NCBI GenBank assembly: GCA_039984955.1
Contig: JBDWTN010000005.1
Location: 496,001-560,000, forward strand
Direction: 5' to 3'
DNA length: 64,000 nt
Origin: Marinobacter alexandrii
Lineage (GTDB): Bacteria; Bacteroidota; Bacteroidia; Cytophagales; Cyclobacteriaceae
Shown: positions 34,693 through 50,154 of the stretch, in pieces
Layout: each line of letters starts with the position of its first letter
How positions within the stretch are numbered: the stretch's first letter is position 1
The notes under the pieces: model-generated
Told to the model about the DNA's origin: nothing
Database searches by the model: none
What the model saw: only the letters and a program-made list of their open reading frames with translations
Made by a program: the position numbers and the translations under genes

Positions 34693-35513
34693 CTCATCAA
34701 CAATTGAACGACTACAGGAAAATGATCTGACAAATATCTGCCATCAATTATCCGGCTGTCTACTCCGTATTTTTCTACCTTAAAATCTTCGGTTACAAAA
34801 ACATAATCGATACGTCTGATTGGAATCTTTGTGTAATTAAAACCATTGAAGGTTCCTGTCTGACCAAACTTGATTTCTGCTTCACCATGGCTGTCGATGA
34901 GTGGGCTTTCTGTGATATTGATCATAGGTTTCGCACCTTCTTCCACATTAAAATCGCCTAACAAAATGGTATTTTTAAAGGATGATTTTTTTCTAATTTC
35001 ATCAACAATTAACTGAGCTGAATTAGCTCTAGCCTCTTTCCCAACATGGTCAAAGTGGGTATTAAAAACAAACACCTCTGTATCGCTTTCTATAGATTTG
35101 AATTTACCCCATGTGCAAATTCTCGGTAGGGCAGCATCCCAAGACTTGCTTGGGTTATCTGGGGTTTCTGACAACCAAAAAGTGCCAGAATCCACGAGCT
35201 TCCATTTTTGAGGCAAATAAAAAATCGGTGAGAATTCGCCTTTTTCTTTGCCATCATCTCTTGCCACACCAATTGATTTGTAATCTTTCAATGTAGACAA
35301 GTCTTGCATCTGTTTCAGGAGTACTTCTTGCATCCCTACGAAATCTGCTTCTTCGTAGGAAAGGAAATCAACTACAGAAGATTTGCGAAGTTCCCATTGG
35401 TTATTTCCGTCTGATTCTGTAGCCATCCTTATATTGAAGCTAATGACTTTGATTGGTTGGGCCATTGATGCAACCATGAAGAGAGAAAAACACATTCCTA
35501 TTATGAATCTCAT
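34689..35513 (-). CDS. Secreted endonuclease/exonuclease/phosphatase-fold hydrolase
   Basis: 274 residues. Signal peptide (IIGMCFSLFMVASMAQP). EEP fold motifs: KVISFNIRM, GMQEVLLKQM (metal-binding Glu), FVFNTHFDHVG, ILLGDFNVEEG, RIDYVFVTEDF and YLSDHFPVVVQ (catalytic His). The fold covers DNases, sphingomyelinases, inositol phosphatases and other phosphodiesterases. A secreted member inside a PUL more likely acts on a phosphate or phosphodiester substituent of the glycan than on DNA, but this is inference. Overlaps both neighbours by 4 nt (ATGA), so it is firmly part of the operon. Confidence 0.88.
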   Translation of the reverse strand: MRFIIGMCFSLFMVASMAQPIKVISFNIRMATESDGNNQWELRKSSVVDFLSYEEADFVGMQEVLLKQMQDLSTLKDYKSIGVARDDGKEKGEFSPIFYLPQKWKLVDSGTFWLSETPDNPSKSWDAALPRICTWGKFKSIESDTEVFVFNTHFDHVGKEARANSAQLIVDEIRKKSSFKNTILLGDFNVEEGAKPMINITESPLIDSHGEAEIKFGQTGTFNGFNYTKIPIRRIDYVFVTEDFKVEKYGVDSRIIDGRYLSDHFPVVVQLLMR

Positions 35514-37801
35514 TCTGCTGACCAGTTTACACTAACTGTTTGCACATCCCTTGAATTACTTCCAATCATGATTTCGAATTCTCCTGGTTCCCAGACATAG
35601 TCCAAGTCATAGTTGTAGAATTTCAAATCCTCGGTAGTGATTTCGAATTGGATTTTTTTCGTCTCTCCAGCATCAATTGCTACTTTTTGAAATCCTTTTA
35701 ATTCCTTGACTGGCCTAGTTACGCTCCCCACCATATCTCGGATGTACAACTGTATTACTTCTTTACCGGCTATTTCACTTGTATTGGTGATGTCGATCGA
35801 TATGGTCAGCTCTTGATCTCCTTTAAGAGAGGTCGTATTTGCGTCAATGCTTCCGTATTCGAAATGGGAGTAGCTTAATCCAAACCCAAAGGGATACAAT
35901 GGGTCATTGGAGACGTCCAGGTAGTTGGATTTGAACTTTTGGAACCATTTTCCTTCGGGGAGTGGTCTTCCTGTATTCTTGTAATTGTAGAAAATTGGAA
36001 TCTGACCAATATTTTGAGGGAATGTAGTACTTAATTTACCCGATGGATTTATCTCACCAAAAAGTACGTCAGCAATGGCATTTCCTGCTTCTGTTCCACC
36101 AAACCATGCATTCAAAATTGCTGGCACATTCTCAGACTCCCACTTCAAAGCCATTGGCCTACCTGCATATAGTACAAGTACAACAGGCTTACCTGTTTTC
36201 AATAACTCTTTCAACAGTCTTTGTTGAGTCTTAGGTATTTGGATGTCCGTTCTGCTAGAGCTTTCACCACTCATTTCCGATGCTTCTCCCAGCGCCGCTA
36301 CGATCACATCGGACCTTCTTGCAATGGCTAAAGCCTCATTAAGCAACTCTGATTCTGATCGATTGTCCCGATAGGTAGGTTTTCCGAATATGCTAACTCT
36401 CTTCTCTAGCGGTTCGTCTGAATAGACATTTGCGCCCTTTGCATATAGAATATTGGCATCATCTCCAGCAACATTCTTTAGACCATCTACCAGAGAAACT
36501 GCTTGTTTGAAATCTGCTGCTACGCTCCAACTACCCACCATGTTTTCCCGATTGTTGGCTAGTGGCCCGATCACTCCAATAGTTCCCTTTTTCGCCAACG
36601 GCAATGTGTTTTTATCATTTTTTAAAAGCACAAATGATTGAGCTGCAGTTGATCTTGCTATGGCTCTATTTTCATCAGTGAAAATGTCTGTTTGCTTTCT
36701 CTCAGGATCACAGTACTTGTAGGGATCGTCAAACAACCCAAGCCTGAACTTTGCTTCCAAAATCCTGCGACATGCTTGATCAATGGCTTGTCGTGTAGTC
36801 ATATTTTTTTCAAGTGACTCTGCCAGTTTAGAAGGCATGGCATCACTCACCATATCCATGTCTATACCTGCGTTGAGTGCTAAGGCCGCCACCTCCAATG
36901 TATCTCCCATTCCATGCTCAATCATCTCCGTAACACCCGTGTAATCAGACACGACGAATCCATTAAACGCCCATTGATCTCTTAGCACCTCCGTCATCAA
37001 CCATCGATTACCAGTAGCAGGAATACCGTCCACTTCATTGAATGAAGCCATCAGGCTGCCAACTCCCGCATCAACTGCTGCCTTAAAAGGTGGAAAATAA
37101 TCATTGTACATCCGCTGGCGACTCATGTCTACGGTTCCGTAATCTCTACCAGCTTCAGCCGCTCCATACAATGCGAAATGTTTCGCACAGGCCATCAATG
37201 TATTAGCTGCAGTCAGATCATCTCCTTGATATCCACGAACCATTGCTTTGGCGATTTCAGACCCAAGGAAAGCATCTTCTCCAGCCCCTTCAGCTATTCT
37301 ACCCCACCGTGGGTCGCGGGCAATATCTACCATGGGCGAAAAAGTCCAGGAAATACCATCGGCACTGGCTTCCTGAGCTGCAACCCTTGCCGACTGTTCG
37401 ATCAGTTTCATATCCCAACTACAGGATAAAGCCAACGGAATAGGAAACACTGTTTTATACCCATGAATGACATCCATGCCAAAGAGTAACGGAATTTTAA
37501 GTCTGCTTTCTTCTACAGCAACTTTCTGAATGGCTCTGATTTTTTCAGCCGTTTTGATGTTGAATAAACCTCCAACTTTCCCTTCTTTGATTTTTGCTAC
37601 AATACCCGTGCTTTGTGCAAGTCCTGTATTGATATCTCCAGCTGCCGGTAAATTCAATTGACCAAGCTTCTCTTCTAGTGACATCAGGCTCATCAGAGAA
37701 TCTATCTCGGCATCATAGGAATTTTCACTTGTGCTTTTCTTTTGATCTGTACAGCTCAGTATCAAAATACACAAGGATAGTATGGTTAGATTCTTCTTCA
37801 T
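35510..37801 (-). CDS. GH3 beta-glucosidase (BglX-like), lipoprotein
   Basis: 763 residues from ATG at 37801, which overlaps the TGA of the upstream esterase gene (ATGA); a longer frame adds 11 residues without signal-peptide character. Lipobox CILILSC (Cys17). N-terminal GH3 barrel with LFGMDVIHGYKTVFPIPL, DPRWGRIAEGAGEDAFLG, KHFALYGAAEAGRDY and nucleophile Asp286 in NGFVVSDYTG; alpha/beta C-domain and a fibronectin-like C-terminus (GFGLSYSHFEYG, then KELKGFQKVAIDAGETKKI). Expected role: release of glucose from beta-gluco-oligosaccharides in the periplasm. GH3 enzymes partner with GH144 in known beta-1,2-glucan systems (sophorose hydrolysis). Confidence 0.92.
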   Translation of the reverse strand: MKKNLTILSLCILILSCTDQKKSTSENSYDAEIDSLMSLMSLEEKLGQLNLPAAGDINTGLAQSTGIVAKIKEGKVGGLFNIKTAEKIRAIQKVAVEESRLKIPLLFGMDVIHGYKTVFPIPLALSCSWDMKLIEQSARVAAQEASADGISWTFSPMVDIARDPRWGRIAEGAGEDAFLGSEIAKAMVRGYQGDDLTAANTLMACAKHFALYGAAEAGRDYGTVDMSRQRMYNDYFPPFKAAVDAGVGSLMASFNEVDGIPATGNRWLMTEVLRDQWAFNGFVVSDYTGVTEMIEHGMGDTLEVAALALNAGIDMDMVSDAMPSKLAESLEKNMTTRQAIDQACRRILEAKFRLGLFDDPYKYCDPERKQTDIFTDENRAIARSTAAQSFVLLKNDKNTLPLAKKGTIGVIGPLANNRENMVGSWSVAADFKQAVSLVDGLKNVAGDDANILYAKGANVYSDEPLEKRVSIFGKPTYRDNRSESELLNEALAIARRSDVIVAALGEASEMSGESSSRTDIQIPKTQQRLLKELLKTGKPVVLVLYAGRPMALKWESENVPAILNAWFGGTEAGNAIADVLFGEINPSGKLSTTFPQNIGQIPIFYNYKNTGRPLPEGKWFQKFKSNYLDVSNDPLYPFGFGLSYSHFEYGSIDANTTSLKGDQELTISIDITNTSEIAGKEVIQLYIRDMVGSVTRPVKELKGFQKVAIDAGETKKIQFEITTEDLKFYNYDLDYVWEPGEFEIMIGSNSRDVQTVSVNWSAE

Positions 37802-38733
37802 TTTTGATTTCTCTTTGTTTGGGAAAAAAGCCATGAAAGCAATTCAGGTTCTGCAAAGGCCCGATCCCAACTATTGTGATTTGCTTCTCTGTATAAAGTA
37901 AACCTGGGAGTCGCTCCAGTTTTTTGTAGTGCAAGCGCCATATCAACTGAATGGTGCGGAAAAACTACATCATCCTTTGCACCATGAAAAATCCATAGAT
38001 CCACCTTGCCAGCATATTTTTTTACAGAATTTGGATTTCCGCCACCACAGATTGGGAAGGCTGCTGCAAATAGGTCTGGTCTTCTTGCTAAAAACTCAAA
38101 TGTGCCCATTCCTCCCATTGAGAGTCCTCCTATATAGATTTGTTCATTGTTAACAAATTTTCTAGAAGCAATTGAATCCATCAATTGAAGCACGAGAGAC
38201 ATAGCTACCGTTGGTTCTCCCTCCTCCAGGAACTCAAACTGTCTCCCTAAGGGGCCATATTGTATATCTACATTTGCCCAATAATCTTCTTTGGGACATT
38301 GAGGGAAAATGACTATCGCCGGATAGTTGTTTCTGTTCTCTTCATTTAGAAATAACGTACTTCCATGCACTAGTTGCTTTTCATTATTGCTTCCTCTTTC
38401 TCCTGCACCATGCAGAAAGAGTACTACAGGATAATTTTCAGATTCTGAGAAGTTTTCAGGGAGTAATATTTGATAGGGCAGATTGCCTTCTTTCCCTTTG
38501 AAAGTTTTTGGAGTGAAGGTTTGGGAAAAAGAGAGAAGAGCATATGCCATTAAGAAGATGACCAAAACAGTTTTTTTAATGATTTGTGAGACACAAACCA
38601 AGGCTGAAGGGATAGTCTGACTAAAAGAACTAAAAAGCCCACCCCTCCTTCGCTCATTTCCAGCACATCCTCGAAACGTCGAACCGTCTCCAAATGAGGA
38701 TTTTTTATTTTCAATAAAGTCTAGATTATTCAT
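37798..38733 (-). CDS. Secreted alpha/beta-hydrolase esterase (CE1/PHB-depolymerase-like)
   Basis: 311 residues from ATG at 38733, chosen because it overlaps the TGA of the GH144 gene (ATGA). The first ~50 residues look non-coding (Arg/Ser/Gly-rich), and only then comes a signal-peptide-like stretch IIKKTVLVIFLMAYALLSFSQ. The mature domain has the oxyanion region VVLFLHGAGERGSNN, nucleophile elbow GGLSMGGMGTFEF (Ser205), acid in HGAKDDVV and His in EANHNSWDRAF. It probably removes acyl groups from the glycan. The leader anomaly suggests sequence inserted between the two genes; translation could instead begin at TTG or ATT just before the signal peptide. Confidence 0.85.
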   Translation of the reverse strand: MNNLDFIENKKSSFGDGSTFRGCAGNERRRGGLFSSFSQTIPSALVCVSQIIKKTVLVIFLMAYALLSFSQTFTPKTFKGKEGNLPYQILLPENFSESENYPVVLFLHGAGERGSNNEKQLVHGSTLFLNEENRNNYPAIVIFPQCPKEDYWANVDIQYGPLGRQFEFLEEGEPTVAMSLVLQLMDSIASRKFVNNEQIYIGGLSMGGMGTFEFLARRPDLFAAAFPICGGGNPNSVKKYAGKVDLWIFHGAKDDVVFPHHSVDMALALQKTGATPRFTLYREANHNSWDRAFAEPELLSWLFSQTKRNQK

Positions 38734-40097
38734 AAGTAAAAACCAAGTTTTTCTAAACCCAGTTGAATTTCTGGTGCCGACATGAACAGATCCCATATCA
38801 AGCCTGTTCGATGGTTTTCGATCATCACTGGGATGGGGCCCTGATCAATTGCCAAATACCTTGGCACATACCAATTTTCTTCAAAATTGAACGCATCATA
38901 CGGTCCATACTCTCCAACTAAGCTATCTGCCTCGGTGTATAAAAAACGCAGCATATCCATGCTTTCGTTTGGTGTGTATGGAAACGATGACAGAGCTGCT
39001 GTAGGGCTTATGACACCTATGTCTTTATCCGGTCTGTGTCCTTTATACCCCTTCATTGAATAACTAGATGTCAGTCCCCAGCATTTAGGTCCATATCCTT
39101 CAAAACCATTGGGATTTTCAACACAATGAGCATAATGAATTTTTGCATGGTTTGTATTCAACTCCCAATAGTTTGCATACTTGTCTTTTAATCCATTTGG
39201 ATTTAAACCTACGTATGAGTAGTGCGCCCAAAACAATGGGCCTATTGGTGAGCTATTGGAAGCATAGTGATTTAATACTGTGCTCATCCCATAGTACGTG
39301 GTATCTTCTGCAATCTTACCATTCCTTGCCCAGCCTTGGTGATACACCTCAGGATTTACCGCATGTGTTGGTGAAGAAGCTGCTAACACATACATGATCA
39401 AGCATTCATTGTATCCCTTTACACCAAAATTCATGTCCCATTCGTACTCGGGAGACCAATGCCAGTACAATATATTTTCACCTCCTTTAGTATGCCAGTC
39501 AAATTCTATGTTTTCCCACAATGTGTTTATTCTGCTAGCCAGATTAGACTCACGTTCATTTTCATTGTCCAAGTATTGACGGACGGTAATTAGCCCTGCA
39601 GCTAAAAAAGAAGTCTCTACTAAATCTCCACCATTATCTTTTTTACTAAAATCCTTGACCTTTCCAGATGGACCATCCCACCAGTGAGGCCATACCCCAT
39701 GAAAAGCATCTGCTTTCTCCAGATAGCTAACTATTTTTTCCAGTCTCTGTAATCCCTGATCTCTTGTGATAAACCCTCGTTCAATTCCCACGATTAGTGC
39801 CATAAGCCCAAAACCTGAACCTCCTGAAGTAATGATTTCCTTGGGATGACTGGGGTAAATATTATCCATATGGAATCGTTCTCGTGCCATGCCACTGACT
39901 GGCTCTGCTCCTTCCCAGAAGTAATTAAAAGTTTGATATTGTATCAATGTCATTAGTGAATCGTCTGAAATCTCCCCGACTTTTTTCACTGAATCTTCGG
40001 AAGTGGAACTAGTCGTTTGACATCCTATTGAAGCAAGTGTGATGACAAATGCAGAGATCAAATTGGTCTTGAATCGAAAGGTGAGTTGTTGCGTCAT
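38730..40097 (-). CDS. GH144-type endo-beta-1,2-glucanase (glucoamylase-like family), lipoprotein
   Basis: 455 residues. Lipobox VITLASIGC (Cys26). The alpha/alpha-barrel family annotated as 'glucoamylase' (PF10091) is recognised by YFWEGAEPVSGMARERF, GGSGFGLMALIVGIERGF, GVWPHWWDG, NGGDLVETSFLAAGLIT, YLDNENERE, HWSPEYEWDMNF, ISPTAALSSFPYTPNESM and LAIDQGPIPVMIENHRTG. Characterised GH144 enzymes cleave beta-1,2-glucan to sophorooligosaccharides. It lies 4 nt after a paralogue and is about 45% similar to it over the catalytic part by eye. The single-domain form probably works near the outer membrane. Confidence 0.87.
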   Translation of the reverse strand: MTQQLTFRFKTNLISAFVITLASIGCQTTSSTSEDSVKKVGEISDDSLMTLIQYQTFNYFWEGAEPVSGMARERFHMDNIYPSHPKEIITSGGSGFGLMALIVGIERGFITRDQGLQRLEKIVSYLEKADAFHGVWPHWWDGPSGKVKDFSKKDNGGDLVETSFLAAGLITVRQYLDNENERESNLASRINTLWENIEFDWHTKGGENILYWHWSPEYEWDMNFGVKGYNECLIMYVLAASSPTHAVNPEVYHQGWARNGKIAEDTTYYGMSTVLNHYASNSSPIGPLFWAHYSYVGLNPNGLKDKYANYWELNTNHAKIHYAHCVENPNGFEGYGPKCWGLTSSYSMKGYKGHRPDKDIGVISPTAALSSFPYTPNESMDMLRFLYTEADSLVGEYGPYDAFNFEENWYVPRYLAIDQGPIPVMIENHRTGLIWDLFMSAPEIQLGLEKLGFYL

Positions 40098-40101
40098 TTT
40101 T

Positions 40102-42078
40102 TTAATAAGTAAATCCTAGTTTAGTAAGCCCTGCCTGCACTTCTGGTGCAGACATAAATAGATCCCAAAGCAATCCAGTTCGATGGTTTTCAACCATGCA
40201 TATGATTGGCCCCTGATCTATGGCAAGATACGAGCTAGCGTACCAGTTTTCAGTAATATTGAAAGCATCGTAAAAACCATATTCGCCCCAAAGCTTATCC
40301 CCCATTAGATAATAAAAATGTCTTATGGCCTCCATGGATTCCTCCGGTGCATATGGCAAAGCAGATATTGCCGCCGTTGGAGTAATTACGCCTCGGTCAT
40401 TATCAGGGGAATGTGCGGAGTATCCGTTATTGTTGTCACTGGCGGTGAGTCCCCATGATGTTGTTCCATAGCCAACATAGTTTAAGGGGTTTTGTGCACA
40501 GTAATCTCTATTTATTAGTGTATGATTGACATTTTGCGTCCAATAATTCGCAAATTGATCAGATAGATTTCGTGGATCCAGTCCTAAAAATGAATAGTGA
40601 GAGAAAAACAAAGGGCCTCCTCTATCTGATCTCAGATCTAATATATGTCCGTAGTACGAATTACTATTTGAATTTTTCATGTCTCCACTGCGTGACCATC
40701 CTTCAGTGTAAACTTCTACATCTATGGTATGCGTTGGCGAAGAAGCTGCTAATACATAAATGATAAGCGCTTCATTCCAACCAGTTATTTTATGATTTTT
40801 TTCCCATCCAAAGTTTGGTGACCAATGCCAGTAGAGCACATCTTGGCCTGCTTGTGTATACCAATCCCATTCAACAGATTCCCACAACGCATTAATTTTA
40901 GTTATCATGCTTGCTTCTTGACCATCAGCATCATTGAGGTATTGCCTTACAGTAAGGAGCCCTTGTACCATAAAAGCCGTTTCCACTAAGTCTCCCCCAT
41001 CATCATTAGCGCTGAAAGGGATGGCTTGACCTGATGTGCCATTGAGCCAATGAGACCATACTCCATGAAATCGATCTGCATCTTCTCCTAAAAAAGTAAT
41101 GATTTTATCCAGCCTATCTATGCCTTCTTGGCGTGTAATGAATCCTCTTTCAATGGCAACCACAATTGCCATTATCCCAAATCCGGATCCTCCAGAAGTG
41201 ACCGTTTCTCCACTTGTATTTCGCTCTCTTGCAAGGCCGCTCACGGGATGTCCAAAATCCCAGAAATACTTGAATGTCTGCTCCTGAATTTTGGTAAGTA
41301 GTTCATCATCTGTTATTTCAGGAAATTTGAATGTAGAGTCAAGCTGAGTGTAGAAACTAAATTCATATCCTGAAAATGGCTGACTTAAGTTTTCCGATAG
41401 TTCTTCACTAATTGAAAAATTGTATTTTTTTAAAGGCGTGAGAGACGTTTCTGAAATTGTGTAATTGATAACAGAATCTAACACTTGATTAGAAACTAGT
41501 TGAACAAACCCATTCTCATCAGAAATACTGATATAGTCATTTACCTGTAAAGTCGAAACTGGCTGTGAAAAAGCTACTTTGAAGGAAGGGTTGAAAGAGA
41601 TGTCTTTGATTCTTGTATTCGAGTTAACTTCCATGTCATCAATAAATACTTTGTGGACAAATACTGGGGGATTAATAGTGGTAAAGCTTTTCTCTATTCC
41701 TGGGAATGATTCACCATTTAATCCCTTGATATCAGCTCCAATAATGATCCTGTATTGTGCGTTTTGTTCAAGTACTTCAAGTGGCATAGCCGAAACGGTT
41801 TTGCCTTGATCTATAAAAGAGAATTCGAGTTCAAGTTGGCTATTTGTGGCGTTAATCAATTGAACATTTTTGGACACACTTGATTGTGCAAGTTCTTCAT
41901 TGAAAGATATGACAATCGGAGCATTGATGGGTGCTTCGGTTTCTTGAGATAATATATTCACTGTGCCTACTCTTAAGGCCGTCAGCTGCATCAGTTGAGT
42001 TTCTTGAATATCACTATCATCTTGACCACATGTGAACAAGAGTAATACAATAATGATTTTTTCCAGAATCCGCTTCAT
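40102..42078 (-). CDS. GH144-type glucanase with N-terminal Big_5/Ig-like domains, lipoprotein
   Basis: 658 residues from ATG at 42078 (MKRILEKIIIVLLLFTCGQ; lipobox Cys17). The frame extends 11 residues further with no signal character. Residues about 30-240 are Ig-like (Big_5 style: ETEAPINAPIVISFNEELA, FNPSFKVAFSQPVS), and the catalytic GH144 domain follows (YFWDFGHPVSGLARERN, GVWSHWLNG, DGGDLVETAFMVQGLLTVRQ, HWSPNFGWE, TPTAAISALPYAPEESM, LAIDQGPIICMVENHRTG). Paralogue of the next gene. The spacer domains should hold the active site away from the surface, suggesting this is the extracellular enzyme that makes the first cuts. Preceded by an intergenic hairpin. Confidence 0.87.
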   Translation of the reverse strand: MKRILEKIIIVLLLFTCGQDDSDIQETQLMQLTALRVGTVNILSQETEAPINAPIVISFNEELAQSSVSKNVQLINATNSQLELEFSFIDQGKTVSAMPLEVLEQNAQYRIIIGADIKGLNGESFPGIEKSFTTINPPVFVHKVFIDDMEVNSNTRIKDISFNPSFKVAFSQPVSTLQVNDYISISDENGFVQLVSNQVLDSVINYTISETSLTPLKKYNFSISEELSENLSQPFSGYEFSFYTQLDSTFKFPEITDDELLTKIQEQTFKYFWDFGHPVSGLARERNTSGETVTSGGSGFGIMAIVVAIERGFITRQEGIDRLDKIITFLGEDADRFHGVWSHWLNGTSGQAIPFSANDDGGDLVETAFMVQGLLTVRQYLNDADGQEASMITKINALWESVEWDWYTQAGQDVLYWHWSPNFGWEKNHKITGWNEALIIYVLAASSPTHTIDVEVYTEGWSRSGDMKNSNSNSYYGHILDLRSDRGGPLFFSHYSFLGLDPRNLSDQFANYWTQNVNHTLINRDYCAQNPLNYVGYGTTSWGLTASDNNNGYSAHSPDNDRGVITPTAAISALPYAPEESMEAIRHFYYLMGDKLWGEYGFYDAFNITENWYASSYLAIDQGPIICMVENHRTGLLWDLFMSAPEVQAGLTKLGFTY

Positions 42079-42095
42079 AAAAAAATAAAAAGAAA

Positions 42096-42123
42096 GGGCT
42101 CGGCAATGCACATTTCCGAGCCC
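42096..42123 (-). terminator. Hairpin between the SusCD-lipoprotein genes and the enzyme genes
   Basis: GGGCTCGG pairs with CCGAGCCC around 12 nt. On the minus strand it is followed by TTTCTTTTTATTTTTTT and then the ATG of the first glucanase. It may be a partial terminator or a 3'-end-stabilising hairpin, making binding proteins more abundant than enzymes. Confidence 0.6.
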
Positions 42124-42142: not shown

Positions 42143-43462
42143 TTATGGTTTTTCAGCTTCATATAAAGCAGTTACATCTGCTTGTGTATATGCTTCACTG
42201 AAGAAGCGAACGTCATCAAGCATCCCTTTGAAGTGATTTGCTGTTGTAGATTCATAGTTACCAAAACCAGTATCATCCCATTTGGTAGTCTCTCTGTCCA
42301 TAGCAAATCCTAGTGCTAGGTCACTTCCATAAACAAAGTCTTCGACTTCAGGATCAAAAACTAAACCATTGAAATTTAATGTTCCAGGAGGTCTTTCTAA
42401 ATCATCTGTTTCCATTAAAACTCCATTAATGTACATAGACCGTTTGTTGATAGATCCATCATAAGTCATAACAACGTGAGCCCAATTTTGAGCAAGTAGA
42501 CCTTTTACTTCACCATCCTCTCGTAAATCTGCTTCAAACTCTATACCAATCCATCCACCTGGATTTGTTGGAGAATCTTGAAATTGTCCATCTCCATTGA
42601 AAAACATGCCATTATTTGCATTATCTCCTTCTATCTGCGTATATCGAGCATTAAAAGCCATTGAGTTTGCTGAGCCATTAAATTCTACATAGAAGCCTGC
42701 ATTAACACCTAATCCCATTACAAAATGGCCTGCATTGCCATCTCCGTTAGTATTCAAATGATCTGTAGTGTCCGTTAATACCCAATAGCTCACAGTAAAT
42801 TTCTCGTTTAAGAAATCATCACCATCAGGAATCTCAATGATGCTTGTATTTCCATTGAAAGATGCTGCAGTATTTACATTGCCGAATCTATCTTCAGCAT
42901 ATGTTATGCCTATTGCTTCTCCTCCACTATGTGTTTCTAACTCATCATCAGGTGTACCATCCAACTTAAAATAAGCTAATTGACTATCGGCTAGAGGTGG
43001 ATCAATTTCGGCTCTTCCTACTGTTGCAAATGATCTAGATGCAGCTGTAAATGTTCCGCCATCAGTGGCTACAATATCTCCAGAAATTGAAATAGAATAA
43101 CTGGTTCCTGTTTGGAGCTCCTCAGAAACTGCAAGCGTAACAATAGCACCAGAAACTGATGGAGTAACAGCTATAGAATTAGCCCCCTCAGACAAAGTAA
43201 TGCTTGCTGATGACACTGATGTCGCATCAAGCTCCTTAGAAAAAGTCACCACGACCTGAAGGTCAACTGGAACGTCTTCTGCTGCAGTTGTTCCATTTAA
43301 ATCCACCGATACATTTTCACCAGTCTTGGGGTCTGTACCGGAAGCTTCTATACTCACTATAGTTAGTGCATCAGGTGCTGCGGTATCGTCATCACCACAA
43401 CCGACCAAGATGAAAACACCAGCAAAAAATGCCAGTCTACTTAAATACTTAAAAGTTCTCAT
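42143..43462 (-). CDS. Surface glycan-binding lipoprotein with Big_5 and LamG domains
   Basis: 439 residues. Lipobox FAGVFILVGC (Cys22) followed by GDDD, a typical surface-export context in Bacteroidota. Residues 35-150 are a Big_5/Ig-like domain (DVPVDLQVVVTFSKELDATS). From about 160 to the end is a LamG/concanavalin-like jelly roll (AYFKLDGTPDDELE, FTVSYWVLTDT, NWAHVVMTYDGSI, FKGMLDDVRFFSEAYTQ). Its place immediately after susD makes it the likely surface glycan-binding protein (SusE/F-position). Specificity unknown. 49 nt separate it from susD. Confidence 0.85.
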   Translation of the reverse strand: MRTFKYLSRLAFFAGVFILVGCGDDDTAAPDALTIVSIEASGTDPKTGENVSVDLNGTTAAEDVPVDLQVVVTFSKELDATSVSSASITLSEGANSIAVTPSVSGAIVTLAVSEELQTGTSYSISISGDIVATDGGTFTAASRSFATVGRAEIDPPLADSQLAYFKLDGTPDDELETHSGGEAIGITYAEDRFGNVNTAASFNGNTSIIEIPDGDDFLNEKFTVSYWVLTDTTDHLNTNGDGNAGHFVMGLGVNAGFYVEFNGSANSMAFNARYTQIEGDNANNGMFFNGDGQFQDSPTNPGGWIGIEFEADLREDGEVKGLLAQNWAHVVMTYDGSINKRSMYINGVLMETDDLERPPGTLNFNGLVFDPEVEDFVYGSDLALGFAMDRETTKWDDTGFGNYESTTANHFKGMLDDVRFFSEAYTQADVTALYEAEKP

Positions 43463-43511: not shown

Positions 43512-45002
43512 TTAGTTGTACCCATCGTTTTGGGTTAATAATCCATTTGATAAATCTCTTTCTGATTGAGGTATTGGGAAAACTTCATTCTTGTCAGCCG
43601 TGAACCCCAAAGGACCTAAAACTTCAGCGGCTCTCCCTGTTCTCACTAAATCGAAAAAGCGATGTTTTTCGAGTGCCAGTTCTACTTTTCGTTCGTTTAG
43701 TATTGCATCACGCAACTCAATTTTATCGGTAGTAGTTACATCAGGTAGTACGGCATTGTTTCCCTCTCTTGCTCGCTCTCTCACACTGTTGAGATAGATT
43801 AATGCCTGATCTGGCTTATCATTTTCATTAAGAGCTTCGGCCACCATCAATAACACATCAGCATATCTAAGAATTCTCACATTATACTGCCAAGACTCTA
43901 TAGCTGTGGTCCCCGAAGCATATGTTTTTTGATTGTAACATTCTATTTCTAATATTTCCGTTTCGGTTTCGTCCGTATAGGTGGTATCTAATGTTCCTCC
44001 ATGCCCTTCAATAGTAATACCATCCAAAGTTTCTCCAAGAAAAATGATTGATGCATCCATTCTTGGATCCCCTACTTCATATGAATTGATTAAATCAATA
44101 GAAGGTCTGTTAAATCCCCAACCACGATTGGGAACCCCTTTTGATCCTTGAGTATTTGCATATTGATGACCCCCTTCCTGAAAATTCTCAGGTAAGGCTC
44201 CTACTTCGAAAATTGAACCTGACCCATGTTCTCCATCTACTGAAAACACATTTGAATAAACAGGATCTAGCATGTATTGTCCAGACATGATTACTTCCAA
44301 TGCATAGATCTCAGCATTTGGGAAGTCTCCCCTGGTGAGGTATACTTTTGCTAAAATCCCTTTAGCAGCACCTCTTGATGCTCTTCCCAAATCTTCACTT
44401 GCGTATTCTCCTTTTTCTGGCAATTCTTCAATTGCGTATAAAAGGTCAGGAATGATCAGGTCATCGTAAATGATGTCTTTATCCGTTCTCTCAATTTTTT
44501 CTGGCGGTGATGTAGTCGTCACCAAAGGGACATTTCCATATCCGCGTACCAATTGAAAATAGGTGTATGCCCTTAGAAACCTGGCTTCTCCTTCGAGACG
44601 TTCTTTGAATTCTTTTTCAATTTCAATATCACCTATTTTCTCTATTACCAGATTTGCTCTTCGAATAGTCTGATAAAGTGTTGTATACCAGCCAAGTATA
44701 CTAGGCTCTCCAGGTCCATAGGTAAAGTTGTCAAAAACCAGAATTTGCGTGGCATCTGCAGGATTACTCCCCTTTCTTGCTTCATCTGACATGATATCCA
44801 GGATAGGAAAACCTTCATGATATCTCCAGTCTCTGAGGTTGTTGTAAATAGAATTGGTAGCTAAAATGGCATCTTCCTCTGTTTCAAGAAAGAATGTTTC
44901 ATTCAAGCTTCCAACTAAACCGACATCCAAAAAATCATCTCCGCAACTAGATGCTGTGAAGATCATGATTACTAAAGCTATTTTTTTCATTTTCATATAC
45001 AT
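43512..45002 (-). CDS. susD: SusD/RagB-family glycan-binding lipoprotein
   Basis: 496 residues from ATG at 45002, which overlaps the susC stop as TGATG; further in-frame ATGs lie 6 and 12 nt downstream. Lipobox IFTASSC (Cys20) then GDDFLDV, the usual SusD opening. TPR-like helices: ETEEDAILATNSIYNNLRDW, TLYQTIRRANLVIEKIGD, GEARFLRAYTYFQLVRGYGN, VPLVT, SRGAAKGILAKVYL; the C-terminus has LRYADVLLMVAEALNE, YLNSVRERA and ELALEKHRFFDLVRTGRA. It binds oligosaccharides at the outer membrane and caps the SusC transporter. Symbol used in the generic family sense. Confidence 0.95.
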   Translation of the reverse strand: MYMKMKKIALVIMIFTASSCGDDFLDVGLVGSLNETFFLETEEDAILATNSIYNNLRDWRYHEGFPILDIMSDEARKGSNPADATQILVFDNFTYGPGEPSILGWYTTLYQTIRRANLVIEKIGDIEIEKEFKERLEGEARFLRAYTYFQLVRGYGNVPLVTTTSPPEKIERTDKDIIYDDLIIPDLLYAIEELPEKGEYASEDLGRASRGAAKGILAKVYLTRGDFPNAEIYALEVIMSGQYMLDPVYSNVFSVDGEHGSGSIFEVGALPENFQEGGHQYANTQGSKGVPNRGWGFNRPSIDLINSYEVGDPRMDASIIFLGETLDGITIEGHGGTLDTTYTDETETEILEIECYNQKTYASGTTAIESWQYNVRILRYADVLLMVAEALNENDKPDQALIYLNSVRERAREGNNAVLPDVTTTDKIELRDAILNERKVELALEKHRFFDLVRTGRAAEVLGPLGFTADKNEVFPIPQSERDLSNGLLTQNDGYN

Positions 45003-48000
45003 CAAAATCTTACGTTTAGTCCTGCCGTAAACACTCTTGTAATTGGGTATACTCCAGTATCAATTCCTGCTTCAAATGGCTCTCCGCCTATCTCAGGACT
45101 ATAACCTGTATAGTCTGTGATCGTGAATAGATTCGTTCCTGATAAGTAAAACCTGGCACTACTTATTTTTAGAAATTCAGTAACATTTTGAGGGAAATTG
45201 TATCCTACAACAACGCTTCTAAGTCTGATAAAGGAACCATCTTGTATGAAATACTCTGATTGAAAGAAGTTGTTTCCGCCAGCTGTAACCCTCGGCTCGG
45301 TATTACTTGGATTTGTTTCACTCCATCTGTTCAGCACATTGGTCTCAAAGTTTGCTATGTCCTGTTTGAGTGCTTTACCATTATAAATTTCATTTCCAAA
45401 TTGTCCTTGAAAATCTATTGAAAGGTCAAATGATCTATATCCTAGATTAAAATTCAATCCGGCAACCAAATCTGGAATAGGACTTCCAATTATCTCCCAA
45501 TCTTCAGAACTGAGTTCATTGTCTCCACTAACATCTCTGAATCTCAAGTCTCCTGGTTGCTGACCAGGAAGGGAAGGATTATTGGCAATTTCGGTTTCGT
45601 TTTGAAAGACCCCATCAACTCTATATCCGTAAAAAGCACCAATGGGGCTACCAACTCTAGTAATTGTTACATTCTGACCTCCACCTATATTTCCTCCAAA
45701 CTTAGGCTCATCTCTCTCCCCAATGCTTAATGTCTCATTATCTATGGTATGTCCCACCAAACCAACGCCATAAGAAAATTCGCCTACTTCATCCCTCCAG
45801 TTTAAGGAAAACTCAAATCCCTTATTCCTGACGTCTGCTGCATTCAAGAATACCGGAACGAAATTTCCATTACCAAAATGAGCTGGTGTTATGAGGCTCA
45901 CCAGTATATCTGAAGTGGTATTGTAGTAGTAATCGACTTCACCAGATAATCGGTTATCAAGCATTCCAAACTCGATACCTACATCGATCATTTCCGTTTC
46001 TTCCCATTTCAGGTTTTCATTGGATGTTCTTCCCAAAGTAGCACCTGGCTGAATAGCTTCTGGTATTCCAAAAACTCCATCAATACCTGCCTGGACTGAG
46101 GAAAAACGAGAATCCCATGGTATCTTATCGTTACCGACTCTTCCCCAACTTGATCTCAATTTCAGATTCGTAATAAAGCTTGAATTCAGAAAATTTTCTT
46201 CCGTAACATTCCAACCTAGCCCTACAGCGGGAAAAAAGCCATATCGCTGATTAGCTCCAAATTTTGAGGTTCCATCTATTCTAGCAGTAATCGTGATTAA
46301 ATATTTAGATTTGAATGAATAGTTCACTCTAGCCAGATAGGATAAATAGCTATACTTATCTACTCCGTCGTTTACACTTTCACTTTCTGTTTCTCCATTC
46401 CTCAAAAATCTTAAGTCATCATCTTCTCGAATCAGATTTTCAGTGCTTCCCGAAAGAAGATTTCTATTCGTCTCTTGTGCTGTATATCCTAATAAACCAT
46501 TGATTCTATGGTCATTAAACTCCTTACTATACGTTATGGTGTTTTCCCAAAGCCAGGTAGCAGTCCGGATACTTGATTTGGTTAAATCATTTTCTTCATT
46601 TAGCTGTCTATCTGAAACAAAGAAAACAGGTGTAAAACTGATGGCATCAGTAACATCACCATCTAATTGATAGCTAGATTTAAAAGTAAAATTTTTCAGA
46701 AATTTTATTTCAGCATAAATATTGGCTAAAACACCAAATGACTTTCTGGAATTATTTGCATATTCAATGGTTGCCAGGGCATTGCCTACTGGATTCTCCA
46801 AAAAATTTCCCGAGGCATCAGTTGCATCGAAGACTGGCCATGCACGATATGCAGTTGAAACAATATTCCCAAGATTTTCTTTATTAATGTTTGAAAAAGT
46901 CAGGTTATTGCCCAATGTGAAGAAATCTGTTAATTCATACTTTCCATTATACCGTACAGATATTCTTTCATAATCCGTCTTGGGAATCACGCCATCCTGC
47001 TTCAAATAATTTCCAGATATGAAATAGTTAGTCTTCTCCGTTGCTCCAGATGCAGATATCGTGTAAGACTGTAATGGAGCGTTTTCTTCAAAAATCAATG
47101 ATTGCCAATCGGTATTAGCAACAAGATCTTCATTGAATGGCGTGCCTAACCCTATTTCGTTAAAAACCTGAGCAAACTGTCTTCCGTTAAGTAGATCAAT
47201 TTTGTTAGCTACATTTTGAAAGCTATAGTGTGAAGAAAATTCTAATTTAGCATCGCCCTTGGAACCAGTTTTTGTTGTAATTAATATAACCCCATTAGCA
47301 CCTCTTGTGCCATAAATTGCAATAGAAGAGGCATCTTTTAAGACTTCAATGGATTCTATGTCAGAACTATTTAAAAAGCTTAAATCCGCTCCAGAACTCT
47401 GACCAGCATCGAAGACATCACCATCGACAGAAGAAAACCTATTATCATCTATAATGACTCCATCAACCACATATAAAGGTGAAGGATCATTTAATGAACC
47501 GACTCCCCGTATTCTTACCGATGGAGCAGCACCTGGCTCTCCCGATACGCTGGATATTTGAACTCCTGAAACTTTGCCCTGGAGAGCTTGAATTGGATTG
47601 GAAGAAGGAATTTTAACGATATCTTCATTTTTTACCGAAAATACCGAGCCTGTAAGATCTCTTTTCTGGACTGTCCCATATCCAATGACGACCACCTCTT
47701 CCAATTCACTTAAATCCAATTCCATCTCAATGTCAATGGTAGATTGATTTAACACGCTAATTTCTTGTGATTGAAAACCTATATATGAGAATACCAAGAC
47801 TATGGTACTATCAGGCATTAATAGATTGTATCTTCCATCAATATCAGTGATTGCACCTTGAGTAGTTCCTTTTATTTGAACTGTCACTCCCGGTAGTGGT
47901 TCGCCATCATCTGCTGACGTTACTTTTCCCGTAATCGTTTGCGCTTGAGCGCTAAAAAAAAGCAGACTCAAAGCTGTCATGCATACCGTTCGAAAACGTG

Positions 48001-48016
48001 GTAATCTTTTTACCAT
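45002..48016 (-). CDS. susC: SusC/RagA-family TonB-dependent outer-membrane transporter
   Basis: 1004 residues. Signal peptide (FRTVCMTALSLLFFSAQAQ). Residues 27-105 form a CarboxypepD_reg-like domain (ITGKVTSADDGEPLPGVTVQ, DIDGRYNL). TonB-box region LEEVVVIGYGTVQKRDLTGS, plug with ALQGKVSGVQI, SVRIRGVGSLNDPSPLYVVDG and IYGTRGANGVILITTK. A 22-strand-type barrel fills the rest, ending in FTAGLNVRF with a terminal Phe. Imports oligosaccharides together with SusD. First gene of the PUL; a 284-bp region with a candidate promoter precedes it. Confidence 0.96.
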   Translation of the reverse strand: MVKRLPRFRTVCMTALSLLFFSAQAQTITGKVTSADDGEPLPGVTVQIKGTTQGAITDIDGRYNLLMPDSTIVLVFSYIGFQSQEISVLNQSTIDIEMELDLSELEEVVVIGYGTVQKRDLTGSVFSVKNEDIVKIPSSNPIQALQGKVSGVQISSVSGEPGAAPSVRIRGVGSLNDPSPLYVVDGVIIDDNRFSSVDGDVFDAGQSSGADLSFLNSSDIESIEVLKDASSIAIYGTRGANGVILITTKTGSKGDAKLEFSSHYSFQNVANKIDLLNGRQFAQVFNEIGLGTPFNEDLVANTDWQSLIFEENAPLQSYTISASGATEKTNYFISGNYLKQDGVIPKTDYERISVRYNGKYELTDFFTLGNNLTFSNINKENLGNIVSTAYRAWPVFDATDASGNFLENPVGNALATIEYANNSRKSFGVLANIYAEIKFLKNFTFKSSYQLDGDVTDAISFTPVFFVSDRQLNEENDLTKSSIRTATWLWENTITYSKEFNDHRINGLLGYTAQETNRNLLSGSTENLIREDDDLRFLRNGETESESVNDGVDKYSYLSYLARVNYSFKSKYLITITARIDGTSKFGANQRYGFFPAVGLGWNVTEENFLNSSFITNLKLRSSWGRVGNDKIPWDSRFSSVQAGIDGVFGIPEAIQPGATLGRTSNENLKWEETEMIDVGIEFGMLDNRLSGEVDYYYNTTSDILVSLITPAHFGNGNFVPVFLNAADVRNKGFEFSLNWRDEVGEFSYGVGLVGHTIDNETLSIGERDEPKFGGNIGGGQNVTITRVGSPIGAFYGYRVDGVFQNETEIANNPSLPGQQPGDLRFRDVSGDNELSSEDWEIIGSPIPDLVAGLNFNLGYRSFDLSIDFQGQFGNEIYNGKALKQDIANFETNVLNRWSETNPSNTEPRVTAGGNNFFQSEYFIQDGSFIRLRSVVVGYNFPQNVTEFLKISSARFYLSGTNLFTITDYTGYSPEIGGEPFEAGIDTGVYPITRVFTAGLNVRF

Positions 48017-48166: not shown

Positions 48167-48205
48167 TTTATGCTATGAAAATTTGCATTTGATATATCGC
48201 ATAAA
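48167..48205. promoter_or_regulatory. Inverted repeat upstream of the susC promoter
   Basis: TTTATGC and GCATAAA are separated by 25 nt, with the candidate promoter about 32 nt away. This is a possible operator for one of the two adjacent regulators; no binding data can be inferred. Confidence 0.25.
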
Positions 48206-48300
48206 AACCAATCTATTTTTATCTATTAAAGCTCTAAAGATCATTTTGATACTATTTATTACGCTTTAATAGCAACTATTTCTTTTTGTTGAAAAATTGA

Positions 48301-50154
48301 CTATTTCTGATAATCTGAAGTATCCAAATGCAAGCTGAAAATATTCTTTACTTGAAACTTCGATTCTTCATCTTGATATTTTTCAGCAATTTTTTTCTTG
48401 AAATTCCATATAGTATTTCTTCTAAGATTAAGCATTTCAGACAGCTCATCTAATGTATATTCATTCGCATCATGACTCATGATATATAGGATATAAAATG
48501 CTTTTTCTAAAGGAAATTTTACTCGATGGAAAATAGTATTACTGGTAATTGATTCATCATAGCCGCACTTGGTACACCTCTTCGAGAACGTGTGATGGCC
48601 TTTGGAAAATTTCTTGTTTTCACACTTGATGCAATGAAACCCATTTCCCCATTTAAGCTTATCCAAAAAGTTTAAACAGGTCAATTCACTCGGAAATATT
48701 TCATTGAACTGCTCATACGTAAGGTTTTTATTAATCAATCGATCTTGCAAAACTTCCTTGATATTGTTCTTCAGTTTCCAATTGTCCAAATCAAGTTTGG
48801 AATTGATTTTATTGATAGCTTCTGTTTGCTGAAACAGTTGCTGATTGGTCTCTGCTAACTCCATGTTTTTCTCTTCAAGCTGCTTGGTTCGTTCCCCGAT
48901 TTTTTCTTCCAGTTCTCTATTCACTTTATCTTTTAGTTCAGCATTTTCTTTATGCTGCGCAATGGATCTTTTCAAAGCTCTATCTCGATTGTCTTTTAGT
49001 ATTCTTACTCGATCACTAAGCGCAAATGTTAGAAACAACATTTCCAACAAAAAGCAGACATGCAGACTGTAGTAAGAAAGTATGATGAAAGGGATGATAG
49101 ACAGAAACAACAATGCCTTGATCAAGAAACCAAGAAAAAGCATGCCATAGGCTAATACGAAAAACCTTGCTGGCTTATATCCCTTATACCAAACGCGTAT
49201 GCTGCTGTAGAAAATCAAGGTCATGGGGATCAATTCTATATTTCGATACTCAAAAAGCTCATGATCAAAAAGCAAGGCAATAACAAATATGACTGTCCTG
49301 ATAATGATTGTCCATGTTAAGATCTTATGTAATCTGGGTGACCTGACTTTCGTATTAAGAAAGCGCCTGGTAAACAATAGCGACCAGAATATCAATGAAA
49401 ACAGAGCTGTGCCGTAAGCTATTTGATTCCACCCTGGTAGATTGGGCCACAAATATTGATAGGCAATGCCATCAACGCACATAGCGTACACAAATACACT
49501 TGCAATGTAGAAGGTGTAATAAAGGTACTTGCGCTCTCTGATTGCAGAAAAAATCAGGAGATTGTATATGGAAACGATAAAGATCATCCCATAGAAAATG
49601 CCATAGAGGAAATATTCATTTAAAGAGTAGTAAACAAAACGATTTACTGTTCTAACAGCTAGCCGAATGTCGGCATAGGAATGAGACTTGACACGGAAGT
49701 ACACCTCTTGCTTTCCTTTAATATCTGAATTAATTAGCCATTCAAAATTTTTATGAGCAAAGGATTTCTCACCGAAAGGAAAATAGTCTCCAGCTTCATC
49801 TTTCTGGTATCCATCGCTTACTTTAGGGATGTATGCAGTAATACTATCAATGGTTTGATCATAAAACTCTATCATCCACTGCCCTTCTGATTTTACTGGT
49901 ATTTCTAATGTTAGCTTAACCCAATAGGTACATGTCACACAGTAATCTTTGGGCTTGAATTGATCATGCACTTCAAATTTCTCAGATCTACTTAGCACAT
50001 CATCGAATGTCAATACTCCAATACTATCTATTAAGATATCAAGTGTATTTATCGGTCGAAGAAATTCATCACGATCACCATCTAAGTAGAGATGATCACC
50101 ATTTGATGAACCTATTGACTGGATTAAAAAAAGGTATAAAAATGCCTTTATCAT
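48301..50154 (-). CDS. 7TMR-DISM membrane sensor fused to an IS1595-type zinc-ribbon DNA-binding region
   Basis: 617 residues. Signal peptide, then a 7TMR-DISM extracellular domain (about 35-170: WVKLTLEIPVKSEGQWMIEF, HKNFEWLI, EVYFRVKSHS), seven transmembrane helices (about 185-385), and a coiled coil (about 390-470). From residue 493 to 595 it matches the N-terminus of IS1595/ISXO2 transposases: CLNFLDKLKWGNGFHCIKCE, a zinc ribbon with Cys508, 511, 527 and 530, SNTIFHRVKFPLEKAFYILY and an HTH-like LDELSEMLNLRRNTIWNF. No DDE catalytic domain follows, so it is not a transposase. It lies just upstream of susC on the same strand and probably regulates the PUL from the membrane. The DNA-binding role is inferred from the domain. 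Confidence 0.85.
   Translation of the reverse strand: MIKAFLYLFLIQSIGSSNGDHLYLDGDRDEFLRPINTLDILIDSIGVLTFDDVLSRSEKFEVHDQFKPKDYCVTCTYWVKLTLEIPVKSEGQWMIEFYDQTIDSITAYIPKVSDGYQKDEAGDYFPFGEKSFAHKNFEWLINSDIKGKQEVYFRVKSHSYADIRLAVRTVNRFVYYSLNEYFLYGIFYGMIFIVSIYNLLIFSAIRERKYLYYTFYIASVFVYAMCVDGIAYQYLWPNLPGWNQIAYGTALFSLIFWSLLFTRRFLNTKVRSPRLHKILTWTIIIRTVIFVIALLFDHELFEYRNIELIPMTLIFYSSIRVWYKGYKPARFFVLAYGMLFLGFLIKALLFLSIIPFIILSYYSLHVCFLLEMLFLTFALSDRVRILKDNRDRALKRSIAQHKENAELKDKVNRELEEKIGERTKQLEEKNMELAETNQQLFQQTEAINKINSKLDLDNWKLKNNIKEVLQDRLINKNLTYEQFNEIFPSELTCLNFLDKLKWGNGFHCIKCENKKFSKGHHTFSKRCTKCGYDESITSNTIFHRVKFPLEKAFYILYIMSHDANEYTLDELSEMLNLRRNTIWNFKKKIAEKYQDEESKFQVKNIFSLHLDTSDYQK

Follow-up and report, generated by a model that had tools for sequence, protein, structure and literature searches.

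A 7TMR-DISM receptor ending in an IS1595 transposase-like zinc-ribbon/HTH: a candidate membrane-tethered regulator of a susC operon in Bacteroidota

Genes at the locus

In the window, i.e. the whole stretch of 64,000 nucleotides that was analysed, an open reading frame of 617 aa was confirmed at 48301-50154 on the minus strand; the plus-strand frame over the same positions is riddled with stops. The genes and features around it are the following.

35510..37834, minus strand: GH3 beta-glucosidase-like gene (sequence match)
37798..38796, minus strand: esterase-like gene (domain match)
38730..40097, minus strand: endo-beta-1,2-glucanase-like gene, GH144 (PF10091 E 9.4e-80; PDB 5gzh E 2.1e-177)
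40102..42111, minus strand: PF10091 protein with Big_5, probably GH144 (PF10091 E 1.5e-79)
42143..43462, minus strand: Big_5/Laminin_G_3 protein, possibly surface glycan-binding (domain matches)
43512..45005, minus strand: susD-like gene (NF033071 E 5e-18, far below the cut-off; conserved beside susC)
45002..48016, minus strand: susC, the proposed first target gene (TIGR04056 E 1.4e-262)
48191..48214, minus strand: putative operator half 2, AGATTGGTTTTTATGCGATATATC (matrix match; 64 bp away from half 1, with its end about 175 bp short of the susC start)
48255..48278, minus strand: putative operator half 1, TAGTTGCTATTAAAGCGTAATAAA (matrix match)
48301..50154, minus strand: 7TMR-DISM/IS1595-zinc-ribbon fusion, proposed membrane-tethered regulator (617 aa; Pfam and colinear homologues in 40 of 40 loci)
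48346..48522, minus strand: HTH-like part of the captured transposase N-terminus (residues 545-603; NF033547 model 2-61)
48559..48693, minus strand: zinc ribbon Cys508/511/527/530 (residues 488-532; PF12760)
48715..49008, minus strand: coiled-coil-like linker, proposed dimer/signal helix (residues 383-480; judged by eye and from a low-confidence model)
49009..49617, minus strand: 7TM domain (residues 180-382; PF07695 E 1.6e-46 and hydropathy segments)
49654..50043, minus strand: 7TMR-DISMED2 ectodomain, proposed ligand sensor (residues 38-167; PF07696 E 4e-21)
50283-52904, divergent from the regulator gene: hybrid two-component (HTCS) gene with GAF, HisKA, receiver and AraC domains (Pfam)

Judged by its gene content, the operon downstream of the fusion gene looks like a beta-1,2-glucan PUL. 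The product of 38730..40097 matches 5gzh, a solved endo-beta-1,2-glucanase structure, and passages of PMC11739564 describe the GH144 family as one of beta-1,2-glucanases.

Domain organization of the fusion protein and origin of its C-terminal domain

The initial annotation had described a DISM ectodomain, a 7TM domain and a zinc-ribbon/HTH in one protein, and Pfam, NCBIfam and profile-profile comparison agree on this architecture. The extracellular domain reaches 75.8 bits with PF07696 (cut-off 22) and the membrane domain 159.3 bits with PF07695 (cut-off 29), and according to Pfam, NCBIfam and hydropathy the transmembrane segments and a DNA-binding-type domain are joined in one chain. HisKA, HATPase, receiver and AraC domains were not found in this protein with Pfam. 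In a low-confidence full-length model (pLDDT 54.2, pTM 0.33) the linker residues 383-480 are part of a single long helix. The predicted structure of the DNA-binding domain is also weak (pLDDT 67.4, pTM 0.53), with the HTH region modelled as helices, and a Foldseek search gave no match at E<=1e-3.

The zinc ribbon matches PF12760 (Zn_ribbon_IS1595) at residues 488-532 with E 2e-5, covering model positions 1-45 of 46, and the four cysteines stand exactly where they had been placed, at 508, 511, 527 and 530. For the whole protein the PF12760 score of 24.9 bits is slightly below the curated cut-off of 25.4, and in a six-frame search of the own genome it is 29.9 bits and over the cut-off; the fusion is the sole PF12760 match in that search. 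Residues 545-603 match positions 2-61 of the 215 positions of NF033547, the NCBIfam model of IS1595 transposases, with E 1.9e-6 and, as expected of a fragment, 27.9 bits at a cut-off of 75. In a profile-profile comparison with eight IS1595 transposases (probability 99.95, E 6.6e-38) 123 columns of the domain align onto columns 4-126 of the 302 transposase columns, i.e. the N-terminus, which we take to be the DNA-recognition part of these enzymes. Over the 123 columns the domain shares 39% identity with the transposase L184, which like L157 is an intact IS1595 transposase of the same order carrying PF12760 and PF12762 (PF12760 of L157 is below the cut-off). The DDE domain PF12762 gave no match up to E 1 in the fusion protein, which stops 14 residues past the HTH match. 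Judged by these alignments the output domain shares its ancestry with the N-terminal part of IS1595 transposases and has lost the DDE half. The proposal of an IS1595 zinc-ribbon/HTH without DDE was thereby borne out, the scores against transposase profiles lying above background.

The own genome encodes ten 7TMR-DISM proteins, the fusion included. By eye, the C-termini of the nine others resemble kinases, a phosphatase or HTHs, and PF12760 is absent from all nine. Two of them (L132 and L136) have ends which look LuxR-like or HTH-like.

Zinc ribbons can bind proteins or RNA. It is therefore conceivable that the zinc-ribbon/HTH does so here, or only stabilises the receptor, with signalling by another route, and the weak structural models would leave room for such a role. 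We consider this quite improbable, because the domain aligns over its whole length to the transposase N-terminus with its presumed DNA-recognition role, because the four cysteines and HTH residues are conserved in diverged fusions, and because a repeat element exists upstream of susC (see below).

Conservation of the fusion and its linkage to susC

With residues ~390-617 as query, matches were obtained in 231 of 390 same-family genomes at E<=1e-3, where the weakest may be to the coiled coil only, as the query includes it, and in 185 of 390 at E<=1e-30 (tallied from the matches listed). Carriers include Roseivirga spongicola, Roseivirga thermotolerans, Fulvivirga kasyanovii and two MAGs; two of these named species belong to the Cytophagales. 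Stretches of about 20 kb (12.6 kb for L064) were taken around 40 same-family loci, and all 40 contain a colinear homologue with 43-70% identity. The spacing C-x2-C-x15-C-x2-C is kept in 47 of 47 fusions, namely the window, the 40 loci, five loci from outside the family (L102-L106) and one more from inside (L107), and besides the four cysteines HTH residues are conserved across the diverged fusions.

That the fusion could be an artefact, a pseudogene or a functionless transposase remnant might be read from the borderline PF12760 score of the whole protein and from two copies in genome G946 (L152 and L156), which look split into two frames. We give this practically no credence, because the homologues are colinear in 40 of 40 loci and the four cysteines are kept in 47 of 47 fusions, and the fusion occurs in several families. 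A frame or assembly error confined to this genome, which the initial annotation had named as a possible undoing of its proposal, was rejected given the 40 colinear homologues and the wide spread of the fusion.

Strong PF10091 matches (E<=1e-50) are present in 175 of the 185 genomes with the regulator, 10 being without, versus 56 of 205 genomes without the regulator; this co-occurrence, like the Fisher values, ignores kinship. In 33 of 42 same-family loci (the window, the 40 others and L107) susC lies directly downstream of the fusion gene on the same strand, with a gap of 196-500 bp. This conserved gene order, like the single PF12760 match in the own genome, speaks against a mobile element. 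Outside the family 43 fusion loci were compared, L102-L106 and 38 of 40 more, two transposase-centred loci being excluded, and susC is the next gene in nine of them. In L103, L104 and L106 it comes after one or two intervening genes. None of the loci of families f68 and f72 has susC next; GH9, GH18 or CE2 genes take this place in L155, L170 and L171. Many other-family paralogs of the fusion adjoin no susC. The adjacency to susC is thus the rule in the window's family (33 of 42) but not universal (nine of 43 outside).

The divergent HTCS gene at 50283-52904 was considered as PUL regulator and dropped, because no homologue of it clustered in the loci of the 40 relatives.

Direct repeats upstream of susC

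A repeated block emerged from an alignment of twelve regulator-susC gaps and was resolved as two direct repeats, an element newly found here. A matrix trained on the pairs yields TTGTTATTaAAGCGnnAtA, with 17.5 bits over 24 columns. The two copies lie 64-66 bp apart on the sense strand of the operon in all 33 same-family regulator-susC gaps, with scores of 14.4-42.6. The permitted spacing of 62-67 bp was set after inspecting all loci, and because the starting consensus was drawn by eye from the twelve loci, the remaining 21 are the cleaner test. When the tested locus and its blast-detectable relatives were removed from training, in 32 of 33 loci no more than 2 of 400 dinucleotide shuffles attained the score, the exception being L107 with 4 of 400. 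In 31 of 33 gaps the same matrix places its second-best site at a distance of 64, 65 or 66 bp, without a change of strand. A plain identity scan for repeats shows these distances only weakly (of 35 gaps, 4 at 64 bp, 4 at 65 bp and 2 at 66 bp), and the repeat result therefore rests on the matrix.

Over the full length of the window the highest-scoring pair is that at 48191-48278 (38.2), followed by one of 15.2. In the genome of 4.88 Mb TTGNTWTTAAAGCGNAATA is matched perfectly just once, inside half 1. Among the 41 other same-family loci no pair of at least 18 was found outside the promoters of susC or of the operon's first gene. The pair is absent in L032, L039, L041 and L066, and L038 and L042 have a weak pair only, located elsewhere. 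In L038, L039, L041 and L042 the PUL is elsewhere in the genome, the stretch of L032 was taken without a PUL, and no strong PF10091 match was found in the genome of L066. L105, from outside the family, has two related copies 76 bp apart. A further overlapping pair in the regulator-susC gap of L043, L055, L056 and L067 may indicate a third repeat, spaced similarly.

About 77 bp past the second site, counted from its TTG, another TTG is enriched (in 13 of 33 loci, the mean being 0.81 per position), with seven more loci at 89 bp. If this marks the promoter, both sites would lie upstream of it. A position upstream of the promoter is where activators usually bind. The canonical Bacteroidota -7 box, TAnnTTTG, was found downstream of the repeats in one of 33 loci.

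In a search for autoregulation by the same element L069, with its divergent susC, was the only locus with a pair of at least 14 bits before the regulator gene. A scan of the own genome for a regulon, allowing up to two mismatches, gave seven matches versus eight in the backward control, and only the perfect site of the window stands out. One site with a single mismatch (L219) lies among genes which by eye look like housekeeping genes. A derivation of the operator from IS ends was discarded: two related intact IS elements, G946 (delimited by means of two copies) and G899 (with a 16-nt perfect inverted repeat), have ends that differ from it, with a best motif score of 3.5 bits. The specificity may therefore have drifted since the capture.

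The repeat pair and the presence of the regulator

In four genomes the regulator gene is distant from the PUL. None of these loci was used in training, and the pair is found at the susC promoter of the PUL in all four, with 34-39 bits. In one of them (L194) it ends 21 nt inside the called susC frame, whose start is probably called too far upstream. Beside the distant regulator gene L038, L041 and L042 have a second receptor-like protein of 656-668 aa, encoded divergently. In the rearranged loci L054, L064 and L069, likewise untrained, the pair precedes susC or the first gene of the operon in three of three cases.

The comparison set consisted of 15 genomes that have PF10091 (GH144) but in which the best regulator match is no better than 2e-5; ten of them were usable, five stretches without a susC of more than 850 aa being excluded. 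At none of the ten susC promoters of these PF10091 PULs is the pair present (scores -9.1 to -1.6). The Fisher value for seven of seven versus none of ten is 5e-5, kinship ignored. In genome G114 the regulator match (6.5e-42) lies elsewhere than the PUL, which is without the pair.

The element could also belong to a different regulator or consist of promoter elements, in which case the fusion protein would merely adjoin the PUL. The HTCS gene next to the regulator gene and the TTG enrichment, which would assign the repeats to the promoter region, can be read in this way, and the regulator-free set differs partly in SusC type. Seven of the ten pair-free promoters precede a longer SusC type (1120-1178 aa); in four of these seven loci FecR is among the scanned upstream genes, in two together with an ECF sigma gene. 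On the other hand SusC is as long as in the window in L203, L205 and L208, which are still without the pair (a Y_Y_Y protein with a borderline GerE match is encoded upstream in L203). Along with the lack of clustered HTCS homologues in the relatives, this dependence of the pair on the presence of the fusion gene (four of four distant cases, none of ten without the gene) argues against a different owner of the repeats. So do the matrix scores beside fusion genes of other families, which have different neighbours. Here the matrix of the window's family reaches at least 16 bits at 8 of 22562 intergenic positions within 800 bp of the fusion gene versus 0 of 57127 other intergenic positions. These eight lie in seven of the 43 loci; the number of independent loci is lower, because L153/L159 and L174/L177 look orthologous. 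Beside the fusion gene 14 bits are reached in only eight of the 43 outside-family loci, and L102-L104 (family code f2) have no site of at least 11 bits. We regard a different owner of the repeats as unlikely.

The data support the view that the pair tracks the presence of the regulator rather than the place of its gene. The regulation of the adjacent susC operon, as claimed at the outset, gains support from this pair and from the synteny in 33 of 42 loci, with DNA binding itself inferred.

Proposed mode of action and comparison with known systems

We think it likely, from sequence comparison, that the fusion acts on the PUL as a membrane-tethered one-component regulator with an operator of the SusR-like kind, for which DNA binding, dimerisation, ligand and sign of the regulation are predicted. 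The periplasmic DISMED2 domain would sense a glycan cue, most likely a breakdown product of beta-1,2-glucan, and the signal would run via the seven transmembrane helices and the coiled coil to the cytoplasmic zinc-ribbon/HTH, which was presumably captured from an IS1595-family transposase, with the DDE part lost. A dimer would bind the two direct repeats upstream of the susC promoter; with 64-66 bp, about six helical turns, between them both sites would be on one face of the helix, the arrangement that has been put forward for SusR-like regulators. Bound in this way the dimer would control, and probably activate, the susCD-GH144-GH3 operon.

7TMR-DISM receptors are known with kinase, GGDEF, phosphatase or LuxR-type outputs. 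The fusion has in common with them the DISMED2 ectodomain, the 7TM domain, a helical linker and a C-terminal output, but differs by its IS1595 zinc-ribbon/HTH. With IS1595-family transposases (PF12760 and PF12762) it shares the zinc ribbon and the HTH, but it is without DDE, has a receptor at the N-terminus and is the only PF12760 match in its genome. Host-transposase fusion transcription factors are known from vertebrates. There, too, the DNA-binding domain of a transposase was captured by a host regulator; the fusion described here is bacterial and joined to a membrane receptor.

For SusR-like regulators of Bacteroides, PMC3878776 gives predicted operators made up of direct repeats whose centres are separated by 67 or 77 bp, i.e. 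six or seven turns. The sus-type operon and repeats at six or seven turns (here 64-66 bp; 76 bp in L105) are shared features, but the fusion differs by its DISMED2/7TM sensor and probably also by its IS1595-derived DNA-binding domain. HTCS proteins, likewise found at PULs, also have their sensor and DNA-binding domains on a single polypeptide, and their operators are direct repeats, but in these the repeats are on average 21 bp apart (PMC3878776), and the fusion is without HisKA, HATPase, receiver and AraC domains. ToxR, CadC, ChiS and TfoS are membrane-anchored regulators with their own DNA-binding domain (PMC11856585, in extract), of a different type than in the fusion. In the main text of a 2023 survey of transmembrane transcription regulators (PMC10269533) the terms 7TMR, zinc, transposase and IS1595 are absent. 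Among the domains occurring with the ChiS DNA-binding domain, a figure legend of PMC8092284 lists 7TMR-DISM, and a 7TMR-DISM protein with a DNA-binding end is therefore already known. Our literature search, at the level of titles and abstracts and with all bioRxiv preprints and most subscription papers outside its scope, returned no account of this architecture or of IS1595-derived regulators, and as far as searched the transposase-derived end on a 7TMR-DISM protein is new.

If the proposed regulation is true, the capture of a bacterial transposase would have produced environmental sensors that form a family of common origin and for which an operator is predicted, and a route to new regulators that is best known from vertebrates would become testable in bacteria. 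A regulator class would be added beside the PUL controllers SusR, HTCS and ECF/anti-sigma. The control of beta-1,2-glucan use would be predicted for many relatives of Roseivirga and Fulvivirga, and a read-out for ligands of DISMED2 ectodomains would be at hand.

Spread and phylogeny of the captured domain

With a profile of 23 DNA-binding domains (A1), matches were obtained in 77 of 194 genomes at the order level and in 95 of 395 at the class level, transposases counted in. Among the matches listed, frames of fusion length come from several family codes of the order and, beyond the order, from f4, f5 and f85. The domain is matched 14 times in one genome and 15 times in another, again with transposases counted in. 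As far as can be judged from these homologues, the fusion is a paralogous family and not a single odd protein.

From 120 distinct domains 15 near-duplicates were removed, giving a quick tree of 105 rows. A careful tree of 80 rows comprises 52 of 77 7TM fusions, two Reg_prop fusions, one stand-alone domain and 25 transposase-type sequences. In the latter the 7TM and Reg_prop fusions and the stand-alone domain are on one side of a branch that separates them from the transposases with support 100/94; this branch is in 100% of 200 bootstrap trees, and the quick tree agrees with support 99. Since the fusion domains are all on one side, one capture suffices. The tree, unrooted and built on 137 columns, fits a single capture.

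The two Reg_prop/Y_Y_Y sensors (L178:5903-8896 and L182:5506-8712) end in the same zinc-ribbon/HTH, and L182:5506-8712 sits directly upstream of susC-susD. The stand-alone zinc-ribbon/HTH of 137 aa in genome G545 (L116:1194-1607, the same place as L083) groups inside the fusion clade and may be either a soluble regulator or a split-off piece.

On balance we favour, with less assurance than the regulation at the locus itself, a class of transposase-derived membrane-tethered regulators in Bacteroidota. It would go back to a single ancient capture of an IS1595 DNA-binding domain, use two sensor types (7TMR-DISM and Reg_prop/Y_Y_Y) and have expanded by paralogs (up to 14-15 domain matches per genome, transposases included); the operator core would be kept across families, each paralog serving a different glycan or other system.

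Genome G547 (family code f8; L108-L114) has ten IS1595-like matches, which lie in open frames of 306-339 aa. Seven of the ten frames were read, and in these both conserved aspartates, at the VDE and TDGW positions, are substituted, which may point to a second domestication.
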